This document shows, one piece after another, positions 8,257 through 64,000 of a DNA stretch of 64,000 nt (its first letter is position 1; every line of letters begins with the position of its first letter). The notes below the pieces were generated by a model. That model was not told the origin of the DNA. It saw only the letters and a program-made list of their open reading frames with translations, and made no database searches. The stretch lies in contig NZ_JARRAG010000002.1 of assembly GCF_029589435.1 (NCBI RefSeq), positions 5,084,001 through 5,148,000 of the forward strand, given 5' to 3'. The stretch is from Paludisphaera mucosa. Its GTDB lineage: Bacteria; Planctomycetota; Planctomycetia; Isosphaerales; Isosphaeraceae. The translations under genes and the position numbers were made by a program.

Positions 8257-9576
8257 GTGATCCAAAAGCACCCCCACCTGACGCTCGCCCTGATGGCGAT
8301 GTCGGCGGCCTTCGCGACGCGGCCCGCCGCCGCCGAGGAGCCCGCCTTCCAGGCCCTGTTCAACGGCAAGGACCTCTCCGGCTGGCACGGCGAGTCGACG
8401 ATCGACCCGCGCAAGTTCAAGGCGATGAGCCCCGACGAGCAGAAGGCCAAGCTCGCCGCCGACGCCGCCGACGCCGCCCAGCACTGGAAGGCGGCCGACG
8501 CCGAGATCGTCAACGACGGCCACGGCGTCTTCCTCGCGACCGACAAGGAGTACGGCGACGTCGAGCTGTTCCTCGACTTCAAGATCGGCCCGATGGGCGA
8601 CAGCGGCGTCTACCTCCGCGGCACGCCCCAGATCCAGATCTGGGACTTCCGCGAGGAGGCCGGCAAGCACAGCCTCGGTGCCGGCAAGGGCTCGGGCGGC
8701 CTCTGGAACAACTCCGCCGGCGCGCCCGGCAAGGACCCGCTGGTCTTCGCCGACAACCCGATCGGCGAGTGGAACACGCTGCGGGTCGTCCAGGTCGGCG
8801 CCCGCACCACGATCTACCTGAACGGCAAGCTGGTCGTCCAGGACGCGGTCATGGAGAACTACTGGGACCGCAAGACCCCGCTGGCCGCCGTCGGCCCGAT
8901 CCAGCTCCAGACCCACGGCAGCGAGACCCGCTTCCGCAACATCAAGATCCGCGAGATCGCCCCGGCCGAGGCGAACGCCTACCTCGCCAAGCTCGACACC
9001 GCCGTCGGCGGCTTCGTCGAGCTGTTCGACGGCAAGGACCTCGCCGGCTGGAAGGGCCCGGTCGACAACTACGAGGTCGTCGACGGCGCCATCCGCTGCA
9101 AGCCCGAGCACGGCGGCACGATCTACTACGACAAGGAGTACGGCGACTTCGTCGCCCTCGTCGAGTTCCGCCTGCCCCCCGGCGGCAACAACGGCCTGGC
9201 CATCCGCTACCCCGGCCAGGGCGACGCCGCCTACCAGGGCATGACCGAGCTGCAGGTCCTCGACGACGGCCATGAGAAGTACGGCAAGCTCGACCCCCGC
9301 CAGGCCCACGGCTCCGCCTACGGCCAGGTCGCCGCGCAGCGCGGCTACCTCCGCCCCGTCGGCGAGTGGAACTACGAGAAGGTGACGGTCAAGGGCCCGA
9401 AGATCCAGGTCGAGCTCAACGGCACGACGATCCTCGACGCCGACCTGAGCACCGTCAAGGAGTTCATGGCCAACTCCCCGCACCCCGGCAAGGACCTCAA
9501 AAAGGGCTACTTCGGCTTCGCCGGCCACAACGACCCGGTCGAGTTCCGCGCCATCTCGCTGAAGCCGCTGGACTGA
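8257..9576 (+). CDS. Secreted protein with two DUF1080 (3-keto-disaccharide hydrolase-like) domains
   Basis: Exported 439-residue protein built from two DUF1080 concanavalin-like beta-sandwich domains. The first starts at about 29 (LFNGKDLSGWHGEST) and the second at about 248 (LFDGKDLAGWKGP). Both keep family features such as EYGDV/EYGDF strands and the later GEWN motif. A signal peptide ends at the AAAEE region near residue 27. Some DUF1080 proteins are now named 3-keto-disaccharide hydrolases; others are described only as sugar-binding or hydrolase-like. The GTG start at 8257 has GAGGAA 7 nt upstream. It follows the rhamnosidase gene on the same strand and probably acts outside the cytoplasm on carbohydrate. 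Whether both domains are active is unknown. Confidence 0.88.
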   Translation: MIQKHPHLTLALMAMSAAFATRPAAAEEPAFQALFNGKDLSGWHGESTIDPRKFKAMSPDEQKAKLAADAADAAQHWKAADAEIVNDGHGVFLATDKEYGDVELFLDFKIGPMGDSGVYLRGTPQIQIWDFREEAGKHSLGAGKGSGGLWNNSAGAPGKDPLVFADNPIGEWNTLRVVQVGARTTIYLNGKLVVQDAVMENYWDRKTPLAAVGPIQLQTHGSETRFRNIKIREIAPAEANAYLAKLDTAVGGFVELFDGKDLAGWKGPVDNYEVVDGAIRCKPEHGGTIYYDKEYGDFVALVEFRLPPGGNNGLAIRYPGQGDAAYQGMTELQVLDDGHEKYGKLDPRQAHGSAYGQVAAQRGYLRPVGEWNYEKVTVKGPKIQVELNGTTILDADLSTVKEFMANSPHPGKDLKKGYFGFAGHNDPVEFRAISLKPLD

Positions 9577-9604
9577 CGTCCTCCGGCCCGACCCCTGGAC
9601 ATCG

Positions 9605-9646
9605 AAGGCCGCGCGGCCGTCCCCCCGGGACGGGCCGCGCGGCCTT
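9605..9646. terminator. Bidirectional terminator hairpin between convergent genes
   Basis: AAGGCCGCGCGGCC at 9605-9618 pairs perfectly with GGCCGCGCGGCCTT at 9633-9646. The 14-nt loop can itself fold. It lies between the DUF1080 gene (ends 9576, plus) and the cytochrome/dehydrogenase gene (ends 9662, minus), as expected for a shared terminator. Confidence 0.75.
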
Positions 9647-9661
9647 CTTCGCATCTCGACG

Positions 9662-11851
9662 TCAGCGCGCCGCCGTCGGCCGGCCCGGGCGCTCGACGAT
9701 CCCGACGTCGATGTACTGGCCGCCGCCGTTCTGACGGCAGTGGACGGCGAGCAGGTTCCGGCCCCCAGGCCGCAGCGCGGCGCGGGCCTCGTCGGAGATG
9801 GGGATCTCCTGATAGTCGGCGACGAAGCCGGGAAGGCGGGCGGCGAGGACGCCGTTGAGGTAGATCTCGGCGTCCTCGTCGTGGTGGACCGAGAGGGCGA
9901 GTCGCGACGGGTCGCCGGCCGGGAGGTCGAAGCCGCGGCGGAGCCAGAGTTCGCGCGACCGCCATTCGGTGCGGACGACCGCGCCTGGCGTGCCGCGGCT
10001 GCCGAAGCCGCCGGGGGCCTCGGCCCAGGCGGCGTCGTCGAAGCCCTCGCGCGTCCATTCGGCCGGCGGCCGCGCCTCGGTGCGACGCCAGGCGACGGGC
10101 TCCCGCCGGGACGTGGCGAGGACCTCGCGCGCGGGCGTCGCCGGGGTGAGGTCGGCGGACGCCGCGTCGATGCGGTGGATGAGCCCCCGATCCAGGCCGA
10201 CGACGTAGATCTCGCCCTCGGAATCCAGCCCGAACGAGACGACCCGGTCGGGCGCGCGGCCGATCTCGACGATCGAGGTCAAGGCCCGATCGCGCTGCTC
10301 GATCGCCCAGACTCGGCGAGTCTCGAAGTCGCCGAAGACGTACTTGCCGACCAGCGCCGGGTTCTTCGCCCCCCGGTAGACGTAGCCGCCCGTCACCGAG
10401 ACACCGAGCCGGTGGTGATAGGCGAAGACCGGCGCGACGTACCGCGCGTCGGGCCGGGCGTAGCGGTCGGAGAAGGGGTGGAAGGCTTCGTAGACGTTCC
10501 AGCCGTGGTTCTCGCCGGCCCGGACGATCGTCACCTCCTCGTACTGCCCTTCGCCGACGTCGCCGACCCAGAGGTCGCCGCTGGGCGGGTCGAAGCTGAA
10601 CCGCCAGGGTTCGCGGAAGCCGGACGCCCAGATCTCCGGTCGCGCGTCGGGCCGGCCGGCGAAGGGGTTGTCGGGCGGGACGGCGTACGCGCGGCCGCCC
10701 TCGGCGCGGTCGACGTCGATGCGGAGGAATTTGCCGAGGAGGGTGGAAAGGTCCTGGCCCCGGCCGTGAGGGTCGTTCTGGGGACCGTCGTCGCCCATCC
10801 CCAGGTACAGGAAGCCGTCCGGCCCGAAGGCCATGTACCCCCCGTCGTGGGTCTCGCCCGAGACGGGGATGTCGATCACGGGCCGGGACGGCTCGCCCGA
10901 ATCGCGGAGGCCGTCGAGGGCGGCCTTGCGCTCGATCACGCGGACGGTCAGCCGGCCCCCGTCGCGCGGGCTGTGCAGCTTGAGGAAGTAGCGGCGGTTG
11001 TGGACGAAGTCGGGGTGGAAGGCCACGCTCGTGAGGCCGGTCAGCTCGCCGGGGGTGGTCTCGGCGCCGACGTCGACGAACGGCGAGCGGCGACGGCCCT
11101 CGTCCTCCAAGAGCCAGAGCCGGCCCCGCTGCATCTCGATCACGACCGCCCCGCCGGGGAGGCCGGGCAGGGGGCCGAACCAGACGGGCCGCTGGAAGGG
11201 CCGGCTCGCGTCGCCCCACGGTCGGAAGGCGACCGGGACGGCCGCGCGGGGCACGTCGCGAGGGTCGACCGCCTCGCGCGGCGAGGCCGAGCGGGCCGGC
11301 GCCAGGGACGCGAGGAAGGCGAGCAAGTCGGCCGTCTCGCCGGGCGCGAGGCCCTCATGGAGCCCCGCCGGCATCAGGGAGACCCGGCTGGGGGCCTGCT
11401 CTTCGATGTCGGCGCGGGCCACGCGGACGGCCTGATCGGCGGCGACCGCGATCTCGACCGCGGCGTCGCCGGCCGGTCGAACTAGCCCCTGGAGGACCCG
11501 GCCCGACGTCAGGGCCACGACCGTCGAGACGTAGTCGGGGTGGATCTTCGCCGAGGGGTCGAGGATCGAATCCAGGATCTCCGACCGTTCCCCGCCCAGC
11601 CCGGCGAAGTCGGGGCCGAGGGCCGCGCCCTTGCCCGCGACCGGATGGCAGCCGGCGCAGCGCGTCCGCGCGACGTCCTCGAACAGCCGGCGGCCGCGGC
11701 CGGCGTCGCCCGTCGCCGCGAGCACGGCGCGACGATATTCGCCCGTCGCCGGAGCGTCCTGGGCCGATGCGTCCGACGAAGGCAGGGCCGCGATCAGGGT
11801 CGCCGCGGCGAGGCTCCGAGAGAGCCTCGTCGGTATCCCGAGGCCATTCAT
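9662..11851 (-). CDS. Cytochrome c / glucose-sorbosone dehydrogenase-like fusion protein
   Basis: Exported redox protein of 729 residues. After a signal peptide (about 1-31) comes a class I cytochrome c domain with heme motif CAGCH at 65-69 and a likely Met ligand further on. Residues about 215-560 form a GSDH/PQQ-type six-bladed propeller with the typical GGYMAFGPDGFLYLGMGDDG stretch and a FREPWRFSFD motif. Residues about 590-729 look like a galactose-binding jelly roll (EIYLNGVLAA). The family oxidises sugars and passes electrons to its own heme; the substrate here is unknown. The start at 11851 is set by a signal peptide and AGGA upstream; the frame is open further upstream but that stretch is unlike protein. 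It faces the DUF1080 gene across a strong hairpin. Confidence 0.85.
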   Translation of the reverse strand: MNGLGIPTRLSRSLAAATLIAALPSSDASAQDAPATGEYRRAVLAATGDAGRGRRLFEDVARTRCAGCHPVAGKGAALGPDFAGLGGERSEILDSILDPSAKIHPDYVSTVVALTSGRVLQGLVRPAGDAAVEIAVAADQAVRVARADIEEQAPSRVSLMPAGLHEGLAPGETADLLAFLASLAPARSASPREAVDPRDVPRAAVPVAFRPWGDASRPFQRPVWFGPLPGLPGGAVVIEMQRGRLWLLEDEGRRRSPFVDVGAETTPGELTGLTSVAFHPDFVHNRRYFLKLHSPRDGGRLTVRVIERKAALDGLRDSGEPSRPVIDIPVSGETHDGGYMAFGPDGFLYLGMGDDGPQNDPHGRGQDLSTLLGKFLRIDVDRAEGGRAYAVPPDNPFAGRPDARPEIWASGFREPWRFSFDPPSGDLWVGDVGEGQYEEVTIVRAGENHGWNVYEAFHPFSDRYARPDARYVAPVFAYHHRLGVSVTGGYVYRGAKNPALVGKYVFGDFETRRVWAIEQRDRALTSIVEIGRAPDRVVSFGLDSEGEIYVVGLDRGLIHRIDAASADLTPATPAREVLATSRREPVAWRRTEARPPAEWTREGFDDAAWAEAPGGFGSRGTPGAVVRTEWRSRELWLRRGFDLPAGDPSRLALSVHHDEDAEIYLNGVLAARLPGFVADYQEIPISDEARAALRPGGRNLLAVHCRQNGGGQYIDVGIVERPGRPTAAR

Positions 11852-51896: not shown

Positions 51897-52334
51897 TCAC
51901 GGCATCCCCTCCGCCTCCTGGACGCCGACGTGGACGGTGATCCCCTCGACCTCGGAGACCGCGGCGGCGACCTCCAGGACCTTGCCGTGGGGGACGTCGC
52001 CGTCGGCCTGCAGGATGACCTTGCGGATCCCCTGCCGGGCGGCCTGGTCGACGGCCCGCTTGGCCTGGTCGAGGGTCGCGGGCGGGCCGTTGCCGTGGCC
52101 CAGAAGGAGCTGGGGCTCGGCCCCGGGCGACTTCGGCTCCAGCAGGGTGAGGAACGTCGCCGCCGACTGCTCCACGCCGACCCCGTGCCGCGCGGCGGGC
52201 ACGTCGACCAGCTCGCCGCCGCTCATCTGCGACGAGAAGAGCATGAACGTCATGAGCTGGAACACCACGTCGACCATCGGCGTCATGTCGATGTGCTCGT
52301 CGCGCTCCTCGGTCGCATCCCGTCGCAGCAGCAT
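51897..52334 (-). CDS. ExbD/TolR-type proton channel subunit
   Basis: 145-residue inner-membrane protein with one N-terminal membrane helix (about 19-38) carrying the functional Asp D22 in DMTPMVDVVFQL, then a periplasmic ExbD domain ending in AAAVSEVEGITVHVGV. It should assemble with the TolQ/ExbB homolog just upstream to convert proton flow to force. The gene begins 70 bp after the TolQ-type stop codon and ends 88 bp before the longer ExbD gene. Confidence 0.9.
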   Translation of the reverse strand: MLLRRDATEERDEHIDMTPMVDVVFQLMTFMLFSSQMSGGELVDVPAARHGVGVEQSAATFLTLLEPKSPGAEPQLLLGHGNGPPATLDQAKRAVDQAARQGIRKVILQADGDVPHGKVLEVAAAVSEVEGITVHVGVQEAEGMP

Positions 52335-52404
52335 GGGCCGGCCCGTTCGGCTTGAGGTGGGGATTGGTCCGTCGACCGGACGGACGCCCGGACGATCCGA
52401 CGAC

Positions 52405-53082
52405 TCAGCGCGACGAGGCCGGCCGCGGCGACCGCTCGGCGGGCGTCCTGGTGGCCTCGATCGGCTCGAGGACGTCCAGGACCTCCTGGAGCTGACGCTC
52501 GGTGCGGTCGCGGAGGCGGCGGAGCCGGGCGTGGAAATCGTTGCCGATGAGCATCATCGGGTTGGCGATCAGCAGCCCCGCCCCGGTGGCCCAGAGCGCC
52601 AGGCTGATGTCGGACGCCAGCGCGTTCGGGTTGACCTTCTCCGAGCTGCCGATGCGCCCGAACGCCGCGATCATCGACGCGACCGTCCCCAGCAGCCCCA
52701 GCAGCGGCCCCATCCGCACGATCGTCGAGATCGACCCCAGCCGGTTCTCCATGTCCGCGACGACCTCGGTGTGGAACTCGGTCACCAGGAGCTGCTTGGT
52801 CTTCGCCAGCCCCTTGCCCCGGTTCTTGAGCGCCACCGCGATCAGCTGCGCCAGCGCGGTGTGCCAGTAGGTGGGGCTCTGGCAGACGCTCATGGCGGCG
52901 TCGAACTTCTTCGCCTGGCAAAGCTCCTGCACCTGCAAGATCAGCGCGGTGGGATCCTTGATCGTCTTCTTGCGGAGCGTCCTGTACAGCAGGATGGCGT
53001 TGTACACCCCCCACACCGCCAGGAATGCCAGCGCACCGTAGATGACGTAGCCGGCCGAGTCGATGATCCGCGTCACGTTCAT
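52405..53082 (-). CDS. TolQ/ExbB/MotA-type proton channel subunit
   Basis: 225-residue inner-membrane protein of the MotA/TolQ/ExbB family. Three membrane segments are predicted at about 8-30, 115-138 and 158-180, with the family GPLLGLLGTVASMIAAF in the second and ALWATGAGLLIANPMML in the third. The start at 53082 was chosen so that the protein begins just before the first helix, as in the family; a longer frame upstream is basic and unlike it. It leads a set with two ExbD genes. Whether this drives Tol, Ton-like transport or another envelope process cannot be said without nearby TonB or TolB. Confidence 0.92.
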   Translation of the reverse strand: MNVTRIIDSAGYVIYGALAFLAVWGVYNAILLYRTLRKKTIKDPTALILQVQELCQAKKFDAAMSVCQSPTYWHTALAQLIAVALKNRGKGLAKTKQLLVTEFHTEVVADMENRLGSISTIVRMGPLLGLLGTVASMIAAFGRIGSSEKVNPNALASDISLALWATGAGLLIANPMMLIGNDFHARLRRLRDRTERQLQEVLDVLEPIEATRTPAERSPRPASSR

Positions 53083-53289
53083 GCGAGCCCGCCCCGATTC
53101 CCGCGTTCGCCCTCGCCCGAGGGGCCACTCGTCCCTCGGCATCCTCCACCGCAGCCCCGCTATTCTGTCCGAATTCCGCCGTGCTGGGCAAGCAACCCGC
53201 CGCGACGCGACGTTTTTGAACCCTGGCCTCGTCCTCAAGGCCTTCGGGGATTGGCTTGGAATCGGCTTCCTCCGTCCTGGGCCGAAATC

Positions 53290-54332: not shown

Positions 54333-54989
54333 ATGCTGGAAGCCCAGGGATTCGAAATCGTCGAACGGGTGCTCGGCACCGACGCGTGCGAGACGCTCGC
54401 GGCCTCGGCCGTCGCCGCCGGGCGGTCGTCGGCCGGGACGCGGAACCTGCTGGCGGAGCCCTGGTGCCGGTCGCTGGCCGAGGCGCTTCGGCCCGCCCTC
54501 GCGCGGTTGATCCCGGCGTCGTTCGCGGGCGTGCAGTGCACGTACTTCGAGAAGTCGCGGAAAGGCAACTGGCTCGTTCCGATGCATCAGGACCTGAGCA
54601 TCGCCGTCTCGGAACGCGTCGAACATCCGGACCTACGCGGCTGGTCCGAGAAGGAGGGGGGCCTGTTCGTGCAGCCGCCCGATTCGTTGCTGGCCGAGCT
54701 GCTGGCCGTGCGGGTGCATCTTGATCCCTGCGGCCTCGACGACGGCCCCCTGCGCGTCGTGCCCGGCTCGCACCGGCTGGGCCGGATCGACGCCGAGTCC
54801 CTCCCGGCCGTCCGCCGAGCGACGCCCGAGGTCGCCTGCGTCGTCGATCGCGGCGGCGTCCTGGTCATGCGGCCCCTGCTCCTGCACGCGTCCTCCAAGG
54901 CCACGGGGACCGGCCGCCGCCGCGTGCTCCACTTCCTCTTCGGCCCTGCCGAGCCGCCTTGCGGCCTGCGGTGGAGGCACGTCGTCTGA
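54333..54989 (+). CDS. Phytanoyl-CoA dioxygenase (PhyH)-like protein
   Basis: 218-residue Fe(II)/2-oxoglutarate-dependent oxygenase-like protein of the PhyH family. Iron-binding residues visible are H85 and D87 (MHQDLSI) and H185 (PLLLHASSK), followed by the arginine-rich GTGRRRVLHFLFG that would bind 2-oxoglutarate. The core strand pair RVVPGSHRLG is typical. The ATG at 54333 has GGGGAG about 11 nt upstream; a GTG 21 bp earlier is an alternative. PhyH relatives hydroxylate many small molecules, so the substrate is open. It ends just before a promoter-like block for the next gene. Confidence 0.85.
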   Translation: MLEAQGFEIVERVLGTDACETLAASAVAAGRSSAGTRNLLAEPWCRSLAEALRPALARLIPASFAGVQCTYFEKSRKGNWLVPMHQDLSIAVSERVEHPDLRGWSEKEGGLFVQPPDSLLAELLAVRVHLDPCGLDDGPLRVVPGSHRLGRIDAESLPAVRRATPEVACVVDRGGVLVMRPLLLHASSKATGTGRRRVLHFLFGPAEPPCGLRWRHVV

Positions 54990-55012
54990 AGCGATCTTTC
55001 TCGAGTGCCCGA

Positions 55013-55041
55013 TCGCCTCCGGGTCGGGCTCCGATTATCAT
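55013..55041 (+). promoter_or_regulatory. Promoter-like block, copy 1
   Basis: TCGCCT (55013-55018), a 17-bp spacer and TATCAT (55036-55041) lie 80 bp upstream of the membrane peptide gene. The same hexamers with the same spacing recur at 58496-58524; the sequence around the -10 is 19/21 identical (55029-55049 against 58512-58532). Confidence 0.5.
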
Positions 55042-55120
55042 CCGGCGGGTCGGGCGGAATCTCGTCGATTTTTGCGGATCGAGACCCGACGGCTTCATCA
55101 CCCTGAAAGAGGCGGGATTC

Positions 55121-55414
55121 ATGGCGGAGGAGAGCAAATCGGTCGGCTGGGTGGCGGCGATGCTGGCCTTGCTGGTCGCGTATTTCGGCTGGGGGTTCCT
55201 GGCCGCCGACTATTTCCAGCACGACCCGACCGGCGACGCGGAGAAGGCCAACTTCTGGATCAACTCCGTCACGCAACTCCCCAACCTGCCCGGCGTGCTG
55301 AGCTACGGCTTCCGCGAGCGGCTGTGGATCGTCGGCCTCGTCGTCGGCCTGGAAGTCGGGGTCCTGATCCTCTGGCTCGTGCTGAGGAAGCTGGAGAAGG
55401 AGCTGTCGCGCTGA
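55121..55414 (+). CDS. Small two-helix membrane protein, copy 1
   Basis: 97-residue protein with two membrane helices (about 9-29 and 68-90) and a periplasmic or outside loop between them (TGDAEKANFWINSVTQLPN). The tail RKLEKELSR is cytoplasmic-type. The ATG was chosen because AAAGAGG lies upstream and the helix begins soon after; the longer frame is basic and starts inside the previous gene. A shortened relative is found at 59129: residues about 47-97 match its first 55 residues (SVT..PGV..ERxWxxGLVVGLxVxVLIL). It precedes the GspE-like gene by 81 bp and is probably co-transcribed. No family is recognised. Confidence 0.7.
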   Translation: MAEESKSVGWVAAMLALLVAYFGWGFLAADYFQHDPTGDAEKANFWINSVTQLPNLPGVLSYGFRERLWIVGLVVGLEVGVLILWLVLRKLEKELSR

Positions 55415-55495
55415 GAGCGGCCTCGACGGAGGCCGTCGCGAGGCCGCTCTTGTAGGCCATGCGGCACGGCTCGCGATCGACGACCCGGAGGGCTC

Positions 55496-56128
55496 ATGGC
55501 GGACGTCGACGAGGCGGACGAGGACGAGATGGATCGGCTCCTCGACGAGTTCTTGCGCCCGGGAAGGGGAAGGTTGGGGAGACGGGCGGACGGCGGGTGG
55601 TTCGTGGACGCGGCCGATCTGGCGGGATTCCTGAAGCTCCCCGCGCCCGCCAAGCTCGTCATGATGGTGCTATTGCTCTGCCTGAAGGATCGGGCGACCG
55701 AGGTCCACTTCCACCCGACGATCAGCGGGGACGACGAACCGGGGTATCGGATGTGGTACGTCGTCGACGGCGCGTCGCACGAACTCGTGCCGCCGCCCCG
55801 CGAGGTCGGGCCGGCGATCGCCGCCGAGTTGAGGCGGCTTGCGGGCCTGCATGCCTGGCGCGCACGTCTCGCCGGCCGCCTCCGCGCCGCGGCCGATCGG
55901 CTCGACGGCCGTCCCCCCGGGCCGGCCTCGGGGAGGTTCCACATCGCGACCGCCGCCTGGTCGCTCGAAGTCGCGGCGACCTTCCATCCGTCCAGAGCCG
56001 GCGACGGGATCGTCCTCGCCTTCGGCCCGTCCGAGGTCGATCCTGCGCCCGAGGCCCAGGAGCAACTCCGCCTGATGATGGGGGCGCGGCCCAGGTTGTT
56101 CGGCGACTCTCCTGAGGACCCGGCCTGA
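55496..56128 (+). CDS. Protein resembling the GspE/PilB N-terminal subdomain, lacking the ATPase core, copy 1
   Basis: 210-residue soluble protein. After an acidic head it has KLVMMVLLLCLKDRATEVHF, then YRMWYVVDGASHELVPPPRE, then a helix and a last strand set RFHIATAAWSLEVAATFHPS. This order matches the N2 subdomain of GspE/PilB/PulE-type secretion and pilus ATPases (ASDIHFEP, RYRVDGxLxEMxPPP, then GGRxVDLRVSTLP). No Walker A, Asp box or Walker B follows, and the protein ends after a short charged helix. It is therefore a stand-alone version, perhaps a regulator or structural adaptor. GGAGGG precedes the ATG. Copy 2 lies at 59378-60031 with about half of residues conserved. Confidence 0.65.
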   Translation: MADVDEADEDEMDRLLDEFLRPGRGRLGRRADGGWFVDAADLAGFLKLPAPAKLVMMVLLLCLKDRATEVHFHPTISGDDEPGYRMWYVVDGASHELVPPPREVGPAIAAELRRLAGLHAWRARLAGRLRAAADRLDGRPPGPASGRFHIATAAWSLEVAATFHPSRAGDGIVLAFGPSEVDPAPEAQEQLRLMMGARPRLFGDSPEDPA

Positions 56129-56172
56129 CGCGACGCTCCCGGGAAATTCGGCCTGCCCGCCCGTCAGGATGA

Positions 56173-56191
56173 AAATCAATGACTTTGATTT
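56173..56191. promoter_or_regulatory. Inverted repeat upstream of the di-heme cytochrome gene
   Basis: AAATCAA (56173-56179) and TTGATTT (56185-56191) form a perfect 7-bp inverted repeat with a 5-nt spacer in an AT-rich patch, with a -10-like TAGAAT at 56216-56221. The arms resemble an FNR-type half-site in reversed order, so a regulator site is possible but its owner is unknown. The rest of 56129-56394 is non-coding. Confidence 0.4.
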
Positions 56192-56394
56192 GTATGATCA
56201 CGAGCCCGTGAGCCGTAGAATCTCTGGTCGTCGTGCAAATCGAGGGTGGCCGTCGGTCGATTTTCGTGGTCGCGGGCGGCGTCGGCGTGATGCGCCTGGT
56301 CGTCGGGTTTGCGTTGCGGGGGACTGGCGGGGGCTTCCGCGCCCGAGGTTTCGACGACCGCTTTCCCCGGGCTTCAAGCGATCGGAGCAAGCTC

Positions 56395-58422
56395 ATGGAC
56401 GTCTGCGGGATGGCGAGCGTCTGGGGTCGCGGCGGGGTCGTCGGGTTGGTCGTCGCCCTGGCGTTCCCGGGCCTCCTCGACGCGGCGGACAACCCGCGGA
56501 ACGTCGACCTCGGGCCGGGCGTCGCCGTGGTGAAGTCCCTCGAACAGAACTGGACGGACGAGGAGTCGAGCTGGTTCTACGACGTGCCGCAGGGGTCGCG
56601 GCTGGTCCCTTACGATTGGTTCCTGCACCTGGAACAGGCCGGGTCGACGGAGCCGTTCCGCGACCCGAAGCATATTCGGGCCCTGGGATACATCCCGCGG
56701 AAGCCGGCCGCGGGGAATCCCGACGGCCTGCCGATAGGGTTCGTCAAGGACGGCCCCGACGAGGACGGCACCCCGATGATGGGGCTGACCTGCGCCGCGT
56801 GTCATACGAATCAGATCAAGATCAAGGGGACGCCCTATCTCATCGACGGCGGGCCGTCGCTGGCGGACGTCGAGATCTTCCTGAAAGAGCTGGCCGCGGC
56901 GCTCCGGGCGACGGCCGACGACGACGCGAAGTTCGGGCGGTTCGCGGCGACGCTCCTGCCGCCGGGGGCCTCGCACGACGAGAAGGACGCCCTGCGCGCC
57001 GGCGTCCGGTCGGTCGCCGGGCAGCGCGAGGGCTACAACGACCGCAACCTGTCCGCGTCGGGCCGGGCCCGGTTCGGCCCCGGCCGGGTCGACGCCTTCG
57101 GCGCCATCTTCAACGAGGTCTCCGCGACGTTCCTGGGCATCCCCGAGAACGTGCGGCCCGCGAACGCGCCGGTCAACTATCCATGCCTGTGGGACGCCCC
57201 CCAGCACGATCGGGTCCAGTGGAACGGGGCGGCGGAGAACAAGGTCTCGCCCCTGGGGCCGGTCCTCTTCGGGACGTCGGACGTCGGCGCGCAGGGACGG
57301 AACGCGGGCGAGGTCCTCGGCGTCTTCGGCGGCGTGGAGATTAACTCCCACGAACTCCTGATCCCCCGGCGCTACGCGTCCACGGTCGACCGGGCGAACC
57401 TCATCAAGATCGAGGAGTCGTTGAAGGGCCTCTGGTCGCCGCAATGGCCACGGGACGTCCTCGGCGACATCGACGCGACCGCGCGCGGCCTGGGCGAGGC
57501 CGTATATGCGGCGAACTGCGCCGGGTGCCACGAGAGCATCGATCGCAAGTCGCCCTCCCGCCGCGTCGTCGCCCGGATGTCGGACGAGGGGACTGATCCC
57601 AACATGATCCGGAATTTCGGCCGGATGGCCAAAACCGGCCGCCTGGAGGGACGCCGCCGGACGCTGCTGGGGCTGGCCCGCTTCGGCCGGACCGAGTCCG
57701 TCGGGGTCATCCTGAAACACGTCGTGGAGCGTGTGATCCTCGACCCCACGCTCAAGCCGCGCTCGATTGCGGACGCCCTGGCGAGGGCGGCGAAACTCGG
57801 GAATCCGTCGGACGCGATCGATTCGCTCAACCCTGGCTACCGCATGACGGCGACGATCGAGCTGGGCGACCGGAAGCTGTTCGGCCGGTTCGATTCGCTC
57901 GTGAAGGACGGGCAGGCCCTGATCGTGGACGGCGCCCGCTTCCACCTGATGCCGAAGGATCGCGACGTCGACGCCCTGGGAGTCGGCGACGACCTGATGG
58001 ACCTCCGCAGCCAGGACGGCCTCCACGCGGCCCTCGCCCGGCTGCAAGGCGACCTCGCGCCGGAGCCGGCCGACTCGCCCCAGGCCGCCGACCAGCCCGG
58101 CAAGGTCGTGATCAAGAACGCGACCGCCAGGATCGCCTACAAGGCGCGGCCGCTCAACGGCGTCTGGGCGACCGCCCCCTACCTGCACAACGGCTCCGTC
58201 CCCAGCCTCGCCGAACTGCTGAAGCCCGCGGCCCAACGCGTCAAGACCTTTCACGTCGGCGGCCGGGAATTCGACCCCGAGGACGTCGGCTTCCTTGACG
58301 ACCCCTCCCAGCCGCTCTTCGACACCCGCGCCGACGGCAACTCCAACGCCGGCCACGAATACGGCGCCGACCTGACGCCCGAAGAGCGGAAGAACCTGCT
58401 GGCGTTTCTGAAGTCGCTGTGA
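56395..58422 (+). CDS. RoxA-like di-heme c-type cytochrome (cytochrome peroxidase/oxygenase family)
   Basis: Exported 675-residue protein with a signal peptide (about 1-30). The first heme motif is CAACH at 133-137 and the second CAGCH at 375-379. The N-terminal region has FYDVPQGSRLVPYDWFLHLE and the C-terminal region GVWATAPYLHNGSVPSL, both typical of the large di-heme cytochromes that include the rubber oxygenase RoxA; bacterial di-heme peroxidases are more distant relatives. Substrate is therefore open: polyisoprene cleavage, peroxide or another oxidation. The ATG at 56395 has GGAG upstream; an earlier in-frame start at 56233 gives a poor signal. It lies between the two GspE-like modules. 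Confidence 0.82.
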   Translation: MDVCGMASVWGRGGVVGLVVALAFPGLLDAADNPRNVDLGPGVAVVKSLEQNWTDEESSWFYDVPQGSRLVPYDWFLHLEQAGSTEPFRDPKHIRALGYIPRKPAAGNPDGLPIGFVKDGPDEDGTPMMGLTCAACHTNQIKIKGTPYLIDGGPSLADVEIFLKELAAALRATADDDAKFGRFAATLLPPGASHDEKDALRAGVRSVAGQREGYNDRNLSASGRARFGPGRVDAFGAIFNEVSATFLGIPENVRPANAPVNYPCLWDAPQHDRVQWNGAAENKVSPLGPVLFGTSDVGAQGRNAGEVLGVFGGVEINSHELLIPRRYASTVDRANLIKIEESLKGLWSPQWPRDVLGDIDATARGLGEAVYAANCAGCHESIDRKSPSRRVVARMSDEGTDPNMIRNFGRMAKTGRLEGRRRTLLGLARFGRTESVGVILKHVVERVILDPTLKPRSIADALARAAKLGNPSDAIDSLNPGYRMTATIELGDRKLFGRFDSLVKDGQALIVDGARFHLMPKDRDVDALGVGDDLMDLRSQDGLHAALARLQGDLAPEPADSPQAADQPGKVVIKNATARIAYKARPLNGVWATAPYLHNGSVPSLAELLKPAAQRVKTFHVGGREFDPEDVGFLDDPSQPLFDTRADGNSNAGHEYGADLTPEERKNLLAFLKSL

Positions 58423-58441
58423 GGGCTGGTTCCCCTCGCCC

Positions 58442-58471
58442 CATCCCAGCGGCCTTGCGGCCTGGGGGATG
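58442..58471. terminator. Hairpin after the di-heme cytochrome gene
   Basis: CATCCC (58442-58447) pairs with GGGATG (58466-58471), with GGCC-TTGC-GGCC as an inner stem, 20 bp after the cytochrome stop codon. No T-tract follows. Confidence 0.45.
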
Positions 58472-58495
58472 CCACGCCGTCACGGACGCTTTCGC

Positions 58496-58524
58496 TCGCC
58501 TCGGCGGCGGCCTCCGACTATCAT
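58496..58524 (+). promoter_or_regulatory. Promoter-like block, copy 2
   Basis: TCGCCT (58496-58501), 17 bp, TATCAT (58519-58524). Same hexamers and spacing as at 55013-55041, with near-identical bases around the -10. It lies 75 bp before the anchored-protein start at 58600. Confidence 0.5.
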
Positions 58525-58599
58525 CCAGCGGGCGGTTTGTCGGACGCGAGGATGTCCCTCGCCGGCCGATTCCGCGGCGGGTTGGATGAGGAGGTGGTG

Positions 58600-59055
58600 A
58601 TGCGACTGTGGCGCAAGGCGCTCCTGATCGGGCTGGCCCTGGGCCTTTCGGCCTTCCTGGGCGTCAGCGTATGGGGCGTCCGAGTCTATCGGCATCAGCC
58701 GGCGGACGCCGCCAGGGCTGCGGAGCAGTTCGCCGACCTGGCGGTCGTCCGGTCGGACGTCGCCGGCTCGTACGCCCGGATCGCGCCGGAGTTCCAGAGG
58801 ACGATCTCGGAGGAGAGGCTGGGCGACGCGGTCGCCAAGATGCACCCGGCGGGCCGGCCGAAGGAAGTACGCGCGACCGAGTACGAGCCGATGCCCGGGC
58901 AGGCGGCCATGATGATCTTCCTCAAGGGGACGCGCGGCGACGAATCGTTCTTCTACCGCTTCATGATGCTGGGCGATCAGCCCTCGGGCTATCGCGTCGG
59001 CGGTTTCTGGCGGGGGAGCGGGCCTTATCCGCCCTCGGCCCGCAAGGCTCTGTAG
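58600..59055 (+). CDS. Membrane-anchored small protein of unknown function
   Basis: 151-residue protein with one N-terminal membrane helix (about 7-27, LLIGLALGLSAFLGVSVWGV) and an outside alpha/beta domain. The pattern SYARIAPEFQRTISEERLGDAV followed by strands MMIFLKG and FFYRFMMLG looks like small NTF2/DUF4019-type folds but is not assigned. GGAGG lies 5 nt upstream of the ATG at 58600, better than the in-frame earlier starts. It is preceded by a copy of the promoter-like block and followed by the second GspE-like module, 73 bp away. Confidence 0.72.
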   Translation: MRLWRKALLIGLALGLSAFLGVSVWGVRVYRHQPADAARAAEQFADLAVVRSDVAGSYARIAPEFQRTISEERLGDAVAKMHPAGRPKEVRATEYEPMPGQAAMMIFLKGTRGDESFFYRFMMLGDQPSGYRVGGFWRGSGPYPPSARKAL

Positions 59056-59128
59056 TCGGTCGATCCCCGACGTCGAATTCGGCGATCGGCTCGCATCGAT
59101 ATCCATCTCACGGGATAGGGCGAGACTT

Positions 59129-60031
59129 ATGGTGGAGGTGGCCAACCTTTGGATGCACTCCGTCACGCCGCTCTCGATCTTTCCCGGCGTGATGGGCTTC
59201 GTCCTCCACGAGCGGATGTGGCTCCTGGGTCTGGTCGTCGGCCTGCAAGTCGTGGTCTTGATTCTCCGGCCCTTGTGGAAAACTCTGAAAAGGAGTCGTC
59301 GCGGTGAGGCCGGCCTCGCGCGGTCGCTCCCGCGAGCGGAGCGTGCCCGTTCGCAGCGTCCGGGTGGGGGAGGGCTCATGGCGGACGACGCTCTCACGCG
59401 AAGAGATCGCAGGAGGTTGGGCAGGCGTGTGGGCGGTGGATGGTTCGTCGACATGGACGAGGGCGTCGAAGGCGCGTCCGTCATGGCGCCGACCGGCAAG
59501 CTCGTCTTCATGGTCCTCCTGCTCTGCCTGCAGGACGGGGCGAGCGAGGTCCATTTCCAGCCGTACCTCGACGAGGGCGGGGACGGCGAACCGTGCGACG
59601 ACCCCTATGAGGACGGCGCGAGCGGCGGGCTGCGTTACCGGCTCTGGTACGTCATCAACGGAGAGCTGCACGACCTGGTGGCGCCGCCGCGGCATCTCGC
59701 CCCGGCGATCGCGGATGAGTTGAAACGCCTCGCGGGCTTGAAATCCTGGCGTGGGCGGCTCGCGGGCCGGCTCCGCGCCGCGGCCGATCGGCTCGACGGC
59801 CGTCCTCCTGCGCCGGATTCGGGGACGTTCCGCATCGGGACGGCGGAATGGTCGATCGAGGTCGCGGCGACGTTCCATTCGACCGTGGCCGGCGACTGGT
59901 CCGTCCTCGCTTTTCGGACGGCCGGGGTCGATCCGTCGACCGAGGCTCAGGAGCAGCTCCGACGGATGATGGAAGCGCGGCGCAAGGCGCGCGGCGAGAC
60001 GGGAGAGCAGCCCGCGCCGGACGCGGCCTGA
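59129..60031 (+). CDS. Fused membrane helix plus GspE/PilB N-terminal-like domain, copy 2
   Basis: A 300-residue frame in which a shortened membrane peptide (residues about 1-58, one helix about 28-48) runs without a stop into a protein matching copy 1 of the GspE-like module. The body shows VHFQPYLDEG, YRLWYVINGELHDLVAPPRHLA and FRIGTAEWSIEVAATFHST. In copy 1 a TGA ends the membrane peptide; here the matching TGA (about 59304) is out of frame, and an indel explains the fusion. ATG 59378 also has GGAGGG exactly as in copy 1, so a separate 217-residue protein may be made instead. The first membrane helix of copy 1 is missing. The ATPase core is absent in both copies. Confidence 0.6.
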   Translation: MVEVANLWMHSVTPLSIFPGVMGFVLHERMWLLGLVVGLQVVVLILRPLWKTLKRSRRGEAGLARSLPRAERARSQRPGGGGLMADDALTRRDRRRLGRRVGGGWFVDMDEGVEGASVMAPTGKLVFMVLLLCLQDGASEVHFQPYLDEGGDGEPCDDPYEDGASGGLRYRLWYVINGELHDLVAPPRHLAPAIADELKRLAGLKSWRGRLAGRLRAAADRLDGRPPAPDSGTFRIGTAEWSIEVAATFHSTVAGDWSVLAFRTAGVDPSTEAQEQLRRMMEARRKARGETGEQPAPDAA

Positions 60032-60071
60032 GGACGTGCTCGCCGGGCCCCCCGCGAAGGGGGAAAGGACG

Positions 60072-61720: not shown

Positions 61721-62782
61721 TCACCAGCCCAGGCCCTCGGCCTCGGTCATGAGTTGCTGGATCCGCTTCTGGACGATGTCGCTGCGGTTCTCCAGGCGTT
61801 TCTGGACGAGCGCCCGGAGCTTCGCGACCTTGGCCTCGAGCGCCTGGATCTCGTCGACGTAGCGCTGCTGCCTCAGGTCGAACTGCCGGCCGACGAGCTG
61901 GGCGAATTCGGCCTCCGTGGCGGCGACCTCGTCGCGACTCGAGGCCGAGGCCGGCTCCAACCGGAATCCGGCCAGCCGCTTGCTCCACTCCTGGACCCTG
62001 GCGCCGATCACCGCCTCCTCGTTCGAGGCGTCGCCGGTGGTGGCGAACGAGGGGTCGGCGGGGGCCGAGGCGGCGGCAGGGCCGCCGTCGGGGCTCAACC
62101 TCGCTCGTCGCGAGGTCGTGAACGGGTCGGACGCCGGGAGCGAGAGGTCGGAGGCCCGCAGCGGCGGGGCGAGCCTGGCCGAATCCCTCGCCGGCGTCGG
62201 CTCTCGGCGGTCGGGGGAAGTCCTGCGCGGCTGACGGGCGCGGGGAAGCTCCTCCTGGTCGAACAGGCGGACTTCTCGAGTCAACGGCGCGAGGGCCTCG
62301 TCGGGGACGTCCGTTTCGAGGACCGGGGGGCGGTCGTCCGGCGCCGGCAGGCTGGGCGTCGACCTCGGTACGGACGGGGGTGCGGCGTCGGGCTCCAGGG
62401 CGGGCGTGGAAAGCCTGTCGCTGGTCGGGTCCGCGGCCGGCGGCGCGTCGATGCCGGGCTTGGGGGCGGGCGTAGGACGGGCGTCGTCCGGCTGCGGCAC
62501 GGGGGAGAGCGTCGGGCCGGGCGTGGGCGTCGGGCCGGGCGTGGGGGTCGGCTGCGGCGCGGGAGGCTCCTGGTCGGGCGACATGTGGAGGCTGGCGAGG
62601 ACCCGTTGCGGTCCCGCGACCGCCTGCTTCGATTGTTGCTGCAAGAGGTCCTGCAGGTCGGCCTGGAGCCTCTGCGCCCGGGCTCCCTCGCGCGCGGCTT
62701 CCACCTGCCGGACGTAGAAGAGGGCCAGCAAGGCCAGGGCTCCGAGGGCCGCGACGACCGCGGTGGGCAGGCTTCGTTTCAT
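61721..62782 (-). CDS. Proline-rich single-pass membrane protein
   Basis: 353-residue protein with one membrane helix at about 8-24, a short amphipathic segment, and then a long disordered region (about 60-270) rich in Pro, Ala, Ser, Thr and Asp, including a TPTPGPTPTPGPT tract. The C-terminal 90 residues are helical and coiled-coil-like (KVAKLRALVQKRLENRSD). It starts 36 bp after the kinase stop codon on the same strand, so the two are probably one operon, and its many Ser/Thr-Pro sites make it a possible kinase substrate. No family recognised. Confidence 0.72.
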   Translation of the reverse strand: MKRSLPTAVVAALGALALLALFYVRQVEAAREGARAQRLQADLQDLLQQQSKQAVAGPQRVLASLHMSPDQEPPAPQPTPTPGPTPTPGPTLSPVPQPDDARPTPAPKPGIDAPPAADPTSDRLSTPALEPDAAPPSVPRSTPSLPAPDDRPPVLETDVPDEALAPLTREVRLFDQEELPRARQPRRTSPDRREPTPARDSARLAPPLRASDLSLPASDPFTTSRRARLSPDGGPAAASAPADPSFATTGDASNEEAVIGARVQEWSKRLAGFRLEPASASSRDEVAATEAEFAQLVGRQFDLRQQRYVDEIQALEAKVAKLRALVQKRLENRSDIVQKRIQQLMTEAEGLGW

Positions 62783-62818: not shown

Positions 62819-64000
62819 TCAGCGAGGCGCGGCGATCGAGCGTTCGAACGCCTCCAGGTCGCGGTTCAGGTCGTCGATCAGGATGGACGTCGGGTCGGGG
62901 TCTTCGGACTCGCTCGGGGCGAGGTGTTCGGCTTCGAGGCGGTCGGCGGCCTCGTTGGCCTCGCGGAGGCGGGCGGGCAGGGCGGCGATCTCGGCCCATG
63001 CGGGCGAGGGGGGCGGCGGCACGGCCGTCCGCGCTTCCTCGTCGGGGAGGGCGAGCGGCGACATCGACGGGACGACGGGGACGGGCCTCGGCCGCAGCGT
63101 GTAGACGCCGGTCGCGGCGGCGGCGAGCGCGCCCAGGGCGAGCAGCTCGCGGCGGAGCCGGCGGCGGGCGCGGGTCGCGGGGGTCGTCAACAAACCGGCC
63201 AGCTCGGGCGGGAGGGGGGCGGCGAGGGGCTGCTGGACATGGGCCAAACAGCGTTCGAGCAGGTCGGCGACCGCGACGGCCGAGGCGAAGCGGTCGGCCG
63301 GGTCCTTGGCGAGCAGGCGGTCGACGATCGCCTCCAGCCAGGCGGGGATCTCGGGGTTGATCTCGCGGAGGGGGCGGTGGCGGTCGTCGCAGACGCGCCG
63401 CAGGACGCCCAGCGGGGTCTCGGCGCGGAACGGCGGGCGGCCGGCGGCGGCGGCGTAGAGAGTGCTCCCCAGGCTGAAGAGGTCGGCCCGGTGGTCCACG
63501 GCCCCGCCCGACGCCTGCTCGGGGGCCATGTAGTGGGGCGTCCCGGCGATCACCCCACTGCGCGTGACCGCGGCGTCGGCCACGGCGCGGGCCAGGCCGA
63601 AGTCGGTCAGGCGGACGCGCTCGACGCCGTCCTCCAGGAGGATGTTGGCCGGCTTGACGTCGCGGTGGACGATCCCCTGGGCGTGCGCCGCGGCCAGCCC
63701 GGCGGCCGTCTGGCGGCCGATGCGGAGGATCTCGGCCAGGCCGAGCGGGCCGAAGCGGTCGATCCGCTCCTGCAGCGAGCGCCCGGGGACGTACTCCATC
63801 ACCAGGAAGGGGAGCCCGGCCGACTCGACGACGGCGAAGACCGAGACCACGTGCTCGTGCACCACCGCGGCCGCCGCGCGGGCCTCGCGGAGGAACCGCT
63901 TGCGCGAGGCCCCGCACGTCGCCAGCGCGGCCGAGAGGACCTTGATCGCCACGTTCCGCCCCAGGGCCGGGTCGTGCGCCTTGAGCACCACGCCCATCCC
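62819..64000 (-). CDS. Ser/Thr protein kinase (PknB-type), 5' partial
   Basis: Hanks-type kinase cut by the window end; 393 codons are visible and the true start is beyond 64000. The frame opens in the glycine-rich loop (MGVVLKAHD), so the ATG at 63997 is internal. Kinase motifs are VAIKVL (the ATP-binding Lys), HRDVKPAN (catalytic Asp), TDFGLA (Mg-binding) and GTPHYMAPE. The kinase domain ends about 260 residues in. A membrane helix (LLALGALAAAATGVYTL) follows and then a Pro-rich tail of about 100 residues. This layout places the kinase inside and the tail outside the cell membrane. Confidence 0.93.
   Translation of the reverse strand, partial: GMGVVLKAHDPALGRNVAIKVLSAALATCGASRKRFLREARAAAAVVHEHVVSVFAVVESAGLPFLVMEYVPGRSLQERIDRFGPLGLAEILRIGRQTAAGLAAAHAQGIVHRDVKPANILLEDGVERVRLTDFGLARAVADAAVTRSGVIAGTPHYMAPEQASGGAVDHRADLFSLGSTLYAAAAGRPPFRAETPLGVLRRVCDDRHRPLREINPEIPAWLEAIVDRLLAKDPADRFASAVAVADLLERCLAHVQQPLAAPLPPELAGLLTTPATRARRRLRRELLALGALAAAATGVYTLRPRPVPVVPSMSPLALPDEEARTAVPPPPSPAWAEIAALPARLREANEAADRLEAEHLAPSESEDPDPTSILIDDLNRDLEAFERSIAAPR

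Follow-up and report, generated by a model that had tools for sequence, protein, structure and literature searches.

The N2 domain is a known working part of the PilB/GspE motor, and a locus in the planctomycete Paludisphaera mucosa raises the question of what such a domain could do when it is encoded apart from the ATPase. The locus lies within the window, a 64,000-nucleotide stretch of DNA (contig NZ_JARRAG010000002.1, positions 5,084,001 to 5,148,000; host genome G000), where a preliminary description had noted two related copies of a small membrane protein paired with a soluble, N2-like protein. The two sides of the duplicated locus are referred to as copy 1 and copy 2, with the soluble proteins P0001 and P0002, respectively. 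Our analysis leaves little doubt that P0001 and P0002 are paralogues of PilB consisting of the N1-N2 linker and N2 only, without the ATPase and without the arginine fingers, and suggests that the N2 of PilB was probably given a second use outside the motor, as a non-catalytic binding module that is likely to be regulatory. The N2 domain itself is known; its existence as a separate, finger-less protein is undescribed in the literature searched, which comprised titles, abstracts and selected passages.

P0001 and P0002 are PilB-type N2 domains without an ATPase

Both proteins contain N2-type motifs (ATEVHFHP and YRMWYVVDG in P0001, ASEVHFQP and YRLWYVING in P0002) and stop after N2. Direct reading revealed no Walker A motif in either of them; the sequence APTGKL in copy 2 was rejected as a candidate, because it does not conform to GxxxxGK[ST] and aligns with APVRKL of the first N2 helix of PilB. 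The host PilB, encoded at C1:1470328 of G000, has MshEN (N1) and T2SSE domains and matches the T2SSE model (Pfam PF00437) at an E value of 8e-135, whereas P0001 and P0002 give no match to T2SSE up to E 1 and none to MshEN. Neither protein exceeds the cut-off of any Pfam family, and the NCBIfam PilB/GspE models match them inside N2 only. At about 30-52% identity, residues ~50-130 of P0001 match open reading frames (ORFs) of ~600 amino acids in nearly all relatives; those that were read encode PilB-type ATPases with a Walker A motif, the nearest being PilBs of the same family (43-52% identity over this region).

Structural comparison gave the same answer. A profile built from the five stand-alone N2 proteins of the window family, which come from four genomes, retrieved PilB from the PDB at E 3e-7. 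The fold model, built on an alignment of stand-alone homologues only, had a predicted local distance difference test score (pLDDT) of 76.9, with values of 76-91 per ten-residue block for residues 21-180, and a predicted template-modelling score (pTM) of 0.71. In a Foldseek search with this model, ranks 1-23 were all PilB, GspE, PilF or BfpD, and a different fold was therefore rejected. VIA-align placed residues 48-180 of P0001 on residues 180-291 of PilB (5tsh) with a Z score of 14.7 and a root-mean-square deviation of 2.4 over 107 residues, which corresponds to the whole of N2; the residues preceding N2 align to the linker that joins N1 and N2 in PilB. The fold prediction and structural search against GspE/PilB, which the preliminary description had proposed as a check, thus agree with profile and motifs in assigning the soluble proteins to the N2 subdomain of secretion and pilus ATPases, ending before Walker A.

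The ATP-sensing arginines are lost

In PilB of Geobacter metallireducens, R271 and R286 of N2 bind nucleotide across subunits, and these two arginine fingers are reported to be completely conserved in the PilB family (PMC5424180, selected passages). Their counterparts in P0001, derived from the structural alignment in combination with that paper, are A160 and A175. Both finger arginines occur in all 15 PilB-type rows of the residue alignment and in none of the five stand-alone proteins. Compared with the N2 of PilB/GspE (N2D; PF00437, TIGR02538), P0001 and P0002 are alike in the whole N2 fold, the linker and the sequence identity given above, but differ in lacking the ATPase and MshEN domains and both fingers; moreover, the arginines of the RYRVDG motif are absent from the stand-alone proteins, in which an inserted helix takes the place of RLPQDGR. 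The resemblance to the host PilB varies along the domain, amounting to 40-56% identity in the first N2 helix and strand, 71-79% in the ELVPPPRHLAPAI segment, but 36% in G003, and 19-25% in the diverged, ATP-facing second half. Because the fingers are lost, a stand-alone N2 would be unable to supply an ATP site in trans and would act only by binding.

The locus arose by duplication, and copy 2 has lost part of the membrane gene

The two related copies seen in the preliminary description are borne out both in DNA and in the N2 proteins. The duplicated segments (Table 1) are 68.7% identical over 922 columns (E 1.4e-97), with a local score of 688 compared with a maximum of 93 in shuffled controls, and P0001 and P0002 share 58-63% identity (58% over 192 amino acids). 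A second, shorter repeat covers the region that precedes the membrane gene, so that the original duplicated unit probably comprised promoter, membrane gene and N2 gene.

The pairing of a small membrane protein with a soluble one, which had been claimed for both copies, holds for copy 1, where the membrane protein has two transmembrane (TM) segments, and fails for copy 2, where a truncated helix fragment is left. The repeat in copy 2 starts within the membrane gene at ~codon 40, and the first TM helix is missing. The remaining membrane part aligns poorly with P0003, the membrane protein of copy 1 (44% over 32 amino acids), and shows no significant constraint, the ratio of non-synonymous to synonymous differences (pN/pS) being 0.69 with a bootstrap interval of 0.42-1.13. 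Small indels ahead of the old stop bring the remnant into the frame of N2, which is open over 59129-60031 (300 amino acids). The N2 start ggagggctcATG is conserved in both copies (55496 and 59378), as is the ribosome-binding site. Because both N2 genes retain this start, separate initiation at 59378 is more likely for copy 2 than translation as a fused protein; the in-frame TM remnant could serve as a membrane tether for N2.

In a tree of stand-alone and PilB-type N2 sequences (125 columns, long branches), G000b groups with the N2 protein of G003 with a support of 92, and the two have an ATP-grasp gene, an unnamed gene (61721-62782), a kinase gene and a sigma factor gene as common neighbours. 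The duplication looks older than the split between G000 and G003.

Stand-alone N2 proteins are patchily distributed and separate from the membrane gene

Stripped copies of N2 recur in related bacteria, and the search of planctomycete relatives suggested earlier did recover stand-alone N2 proteins in other genomes. The close form is found in 4 of the 45 genomes sampled from the window's family, within the genus in G000 and G003 only; more divergent members occur in G012 and G016, that of G016 being truncated, and in a sample of 398 genomes of the class no further genome has a member at comparable score. Homologues are 37-61% identical to P0001. The pN/pS values of the five stand-alone proteins range from 0.55 to 0.78, with every bootstrap interval below 1, which points to weak purifying selection.

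The two-gene pair, by comparison, did not turn out to be conserved in other planctomycete genomes. In G003, an unrelated gene comes after the membrane gene and a contig break lies between the membrane gene and N2; the sequence covers 170 bases ahead of the N2 gene of that genome, and these encode no membrane segment. Elsewhere the genes occur singly: G035 and G018 have orthologues of P0003 and no close N2 relatives, while G022 and G028 have N2 homologues and no membrane gene. A conserved operon of membrane gene and N2 is rejected by these five genomes, and the pair is known from G000 alone. Between P0003 and its G003 orthologue pN/pS is 0.25.

Individual members show further features. The N2 protein of G003 (L033:9660-10448) contains an internal near-repeat of ~28 residues, RAAADLIGGRPPGPSS / RAAADRIDGRPPAPSS. 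In G022, an ORF immediately preceding the N2 gene (L032:9363-9635) contains the phrase LALQRTPATGRAFTSL and looks like an interspersed repeat. In the region L034:8977-16684 of G028, the stand-alone N2 gene is flanked on one side by a divergent BlaI/BlaR1-like pair and on the other by hisF, a pilT-like gene and a second pilB-type ATPase gene.

A second stand-alone family, N2B

Beside a small ORF matched in one search, G047 encodes a 158-amino-acid protein (L037:9933-10409), so that two different N2-like ORFs stand there in tandem (9456-9914 and 9933-10409). Relatives of the 158-residue protein, termed N2B, are present in 17 of the 81 genomes from the same planctomycete family, probably Gemmataceae, with 49-85% identity; outside that family none was found among 119 genomes of the class at E 1e-12. 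A model based on N2B sequences only (pLDDT 88.4, pTM 0.83) superimposes on the N2 of PilB with Z 13.5. The N2B profile reaches the PilB N2 of the window's family at ~1e-8 and none of that family's stand-alone proteins at E <= 0.001, and profile-profile comparison of the two stand-alone sets yields E 4e-7, as expected for any two N2 sets. Since neither stand-alone family exceeds the cut-off of a Pfam model, automatic annotation probably leaves both unnamed.

Like the window family, N2B is a stand-alone N2 without Walker A; unlike it, N2B has no helix insertion, has lost the proline of the EPF motif and has a conserved neighbourhood of extracytoplasmic function (ECF) sigma factor and kinase genes. 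The arginine at the R286 position is absent from 10 of 10 alignment rows and that at the R271 position from 8 of 10, in a stretch where the alignment is uncertain for N2B. The tree separates the window family (support 99), N2B (100) and the PilB-type rows (99). A single origin of both stand-alone families is possible, and they may equally have arisen independently; the short alignment and long branches do not decide between one origin and two. At L037:8251-12375 and L109-L118, the genes are arrayed in the order ECF sigma factor, membrane protein, stand-alone N2, Ser/Thr kinase, with the membrane protein often present.

What the stand-alone N2 might do

The explanation we favour, with a rough probability of 0.4, is that the window proteins are finger-less PilB N2 paralogues acting as an adaptor or brake on a pilus motor. 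Without an ATP site, the stand-alone N2 would act by binding alone, occupying the partner that is normally bound by the N2 of PilB, i.e. either the ring of PilB itself or the platform or stator of the pilus, and would thereby work as a non-hydrolysing adaptor or brake. This mechanism, considered by itself, is doubtful. For the window proteins it is slightly favoured, because the most PilB-like half of N2 is the half without fingers. Other non-ATPase proteins are described as binding the PilB motor in the way proposed here, namely the phage inhibitors Tip and Aqs1 and the cofactors FimX and PilZ, but these are different proteins, and the passages of the review considered (PMC11656802) do not present any of them as an N2 copy.

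Several observations weigh against a role at the pilus motor. The conserved N2 segments may represent the fold core rather than a binding surface, and the loss of RLPQDGR together with the helix insertion may block docking on the ATPase domain of PilB. N2B sits among ECF and kinase genes, not pilus genes, and the surroundings of the N2 locus in G000, G003 and G022 showed no pilus gene; the homologue in G028, 2.5 kb from pilT- and pilB-type genes, is the only stand-alone copy seen near genes of that type. The congeners G001, G002, G004 and G005 have no stand-alone N2 match, and this patchiness, with 4 of 45 genomes positive, implies that no pilus machine depends on the stand-alone N2.

The gene neighbourhood suggests instead that N2 could be a scaffold or switch through which an ECF sigma factor is connected with a Ser/Thr kinase (and a membrane protein), without a role in pili. 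N2B lies in operon-like arrays of these genes: among 11 loci from four genera, a kinase is adjacent in 8, an ECF sigma factor in 8 and either of them in 10, and in G047 both neighbours were confirmed by Pfam. These neighbours favour kinase/sigma signalling for the N2B family. At the P. mucosa locus, genes for a kinase and an ECF sigma factor follow 2.8-4.3 kb past copy 2 and are syntenic in G003. However, the genome has ~90 kinases (104 matches), and the probability that one of them lies no more than 3 kb from any particular gene by chance is ~8%, for which reason proximity in the window was rejected as proof of signalling. In addition, G004 has the kinase close to the ATP-grasp gene with no N2 there, the stretches analysed around the N2 genes of G022 and G028 contain no such kinase, and the window family and N2B may be independent of each other. 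We consider this explanation unlikely overall.

Less probable still is that the locus is a decaying relic derived from PilB and duplicated by chance, with little present function. Such a relic would fit the patchy distribution, the divergence from P0001, pN/pS values reaching 0.78, the internally repeated and truncated members in G003 and G016, and the apparently unconstrained TM fragment of copy 2. It does not fit the confinement of every pN/pS interval of the N2 pairs below 1, the open frame in five proteins from four genomes, the ribosome-binding site retained in both copies, a duplication that looks older than the G000/G003 split, or the good conservation of N2B.

Finally, N2 could be a decoy that soaks up proteins directed at the N2 of PilB, e.g. 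phage pilus inhibitors, and so shields the motor; the phage protein Tip targets the N2D of PilB, with P208 and Y209 implicated (review PMC11656802, in part). The proline taken as the counterpart of P208 is kept in five of five stand-alone proteins, and patchy occurrence and fast evolution would suit a decoy, but the residue following that proline varies (T, Y, C, A, P). As nothing else at the locus looks defensive and, to our knowledge, no phage inhibitor of PilB is known in planctomycetes, a decoy is very improbable.

Returning to the reuse of a motor domain, both families can be accommodated in a tentative scheme, in which planctomycetes detached the N2 of the pilus motor once or twice and stripped it of the ATP-sensing arginines to yield a stand-alone signalling or inhibitor domain, whose position in one lineage became fixed, with an ECF sigma factor on one side and a Ser/Thr kinase on the other. 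If true, a motor part would have been recruited as a regulatory domain, and the proteins would offer a concrete test of whether the very large kinase and sigma factor networks of planctomycetes are connected with pilus or secretion motors.

Layout of the locus and neighbouring genes

Table 1. Features of the duplicated N2 locus in window coordinates
Feature	Position	Strand	Evidence
Upstream region of membrane gene, repeated at 58429-58532	54933-55049	+	blastn, 71% over 119 columns, E 4.9e-8
P0003, membrane protein with two TM helices, 97 aa, of no known family	55121-55414	+	ORF; orthologues in G003 (85%), G035 (59%), G018 (50%)
Duplicated segment, copy 1: 3' part of membrane gene and N2 gene	55240-56174	+	DNA alignment to 59134-60066
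P0001, stand-alone PilB-type N2 protein, copy 1, 210 aa	55496-56128	+	ORF, profile, fold model
N2 domain of P0001 (residues 48-181), with insertion helix (residues 121-136) and finger positions A160 and A175	55637-56038	+	VIA-align to PilB 5tsh; alignments
P0006, RoxA-like c-type cytochrome between the copies, accessory gene	56395-58422	+	PF21419, E 1.2e-19; best congener match 44%
Repeat of upstream region 54933-55049, now preceding P0005	58429-58532	+	blastn
P0005, anchored protein, between repeated upstream region and membrane remnant of copy 2	58600-59055	+	Weak DUF4864 similarity (E 0.006, short of the Pfam cut-off)
Membrane-gene remnant of copy 2, 5'-truncated, second TM helix only, in frame with N2 ORF	59129-59308	+	ORF, DNA alignment, pN/pS
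Duplicated segment, copy 2	59134-60066	+	DNA alignment to 55240-56174
P0002, stand-alone PilB-type N2 protein, copy 2, 217 aa; frame open from 59129	59378-60031	+	ORF; syntenic with G003 beside ATP-grasp gene

The RoxA-like cytochrome and the anchored protein reported between the copies are both present (Table 1). The cytochrome was rejected as a component of the system, as it has no close orthologue in the genus. Next to the locus, on the minus strand at 51897-53238, lie ExbD- and ExbB/TolQ-like genes, syntenic in G003 and separated from the locus by a PhyH-type dioxygenase gene (54333-54989). On the other side, the Ser/Thr kinase gene (62819-64318, minus strand, covered by 62819-64000 and L057:1-901) encodes a Cys-containing N-terminal segment and is overlapped by the ECF sigma factor gene (64293-64901) on the same strand.

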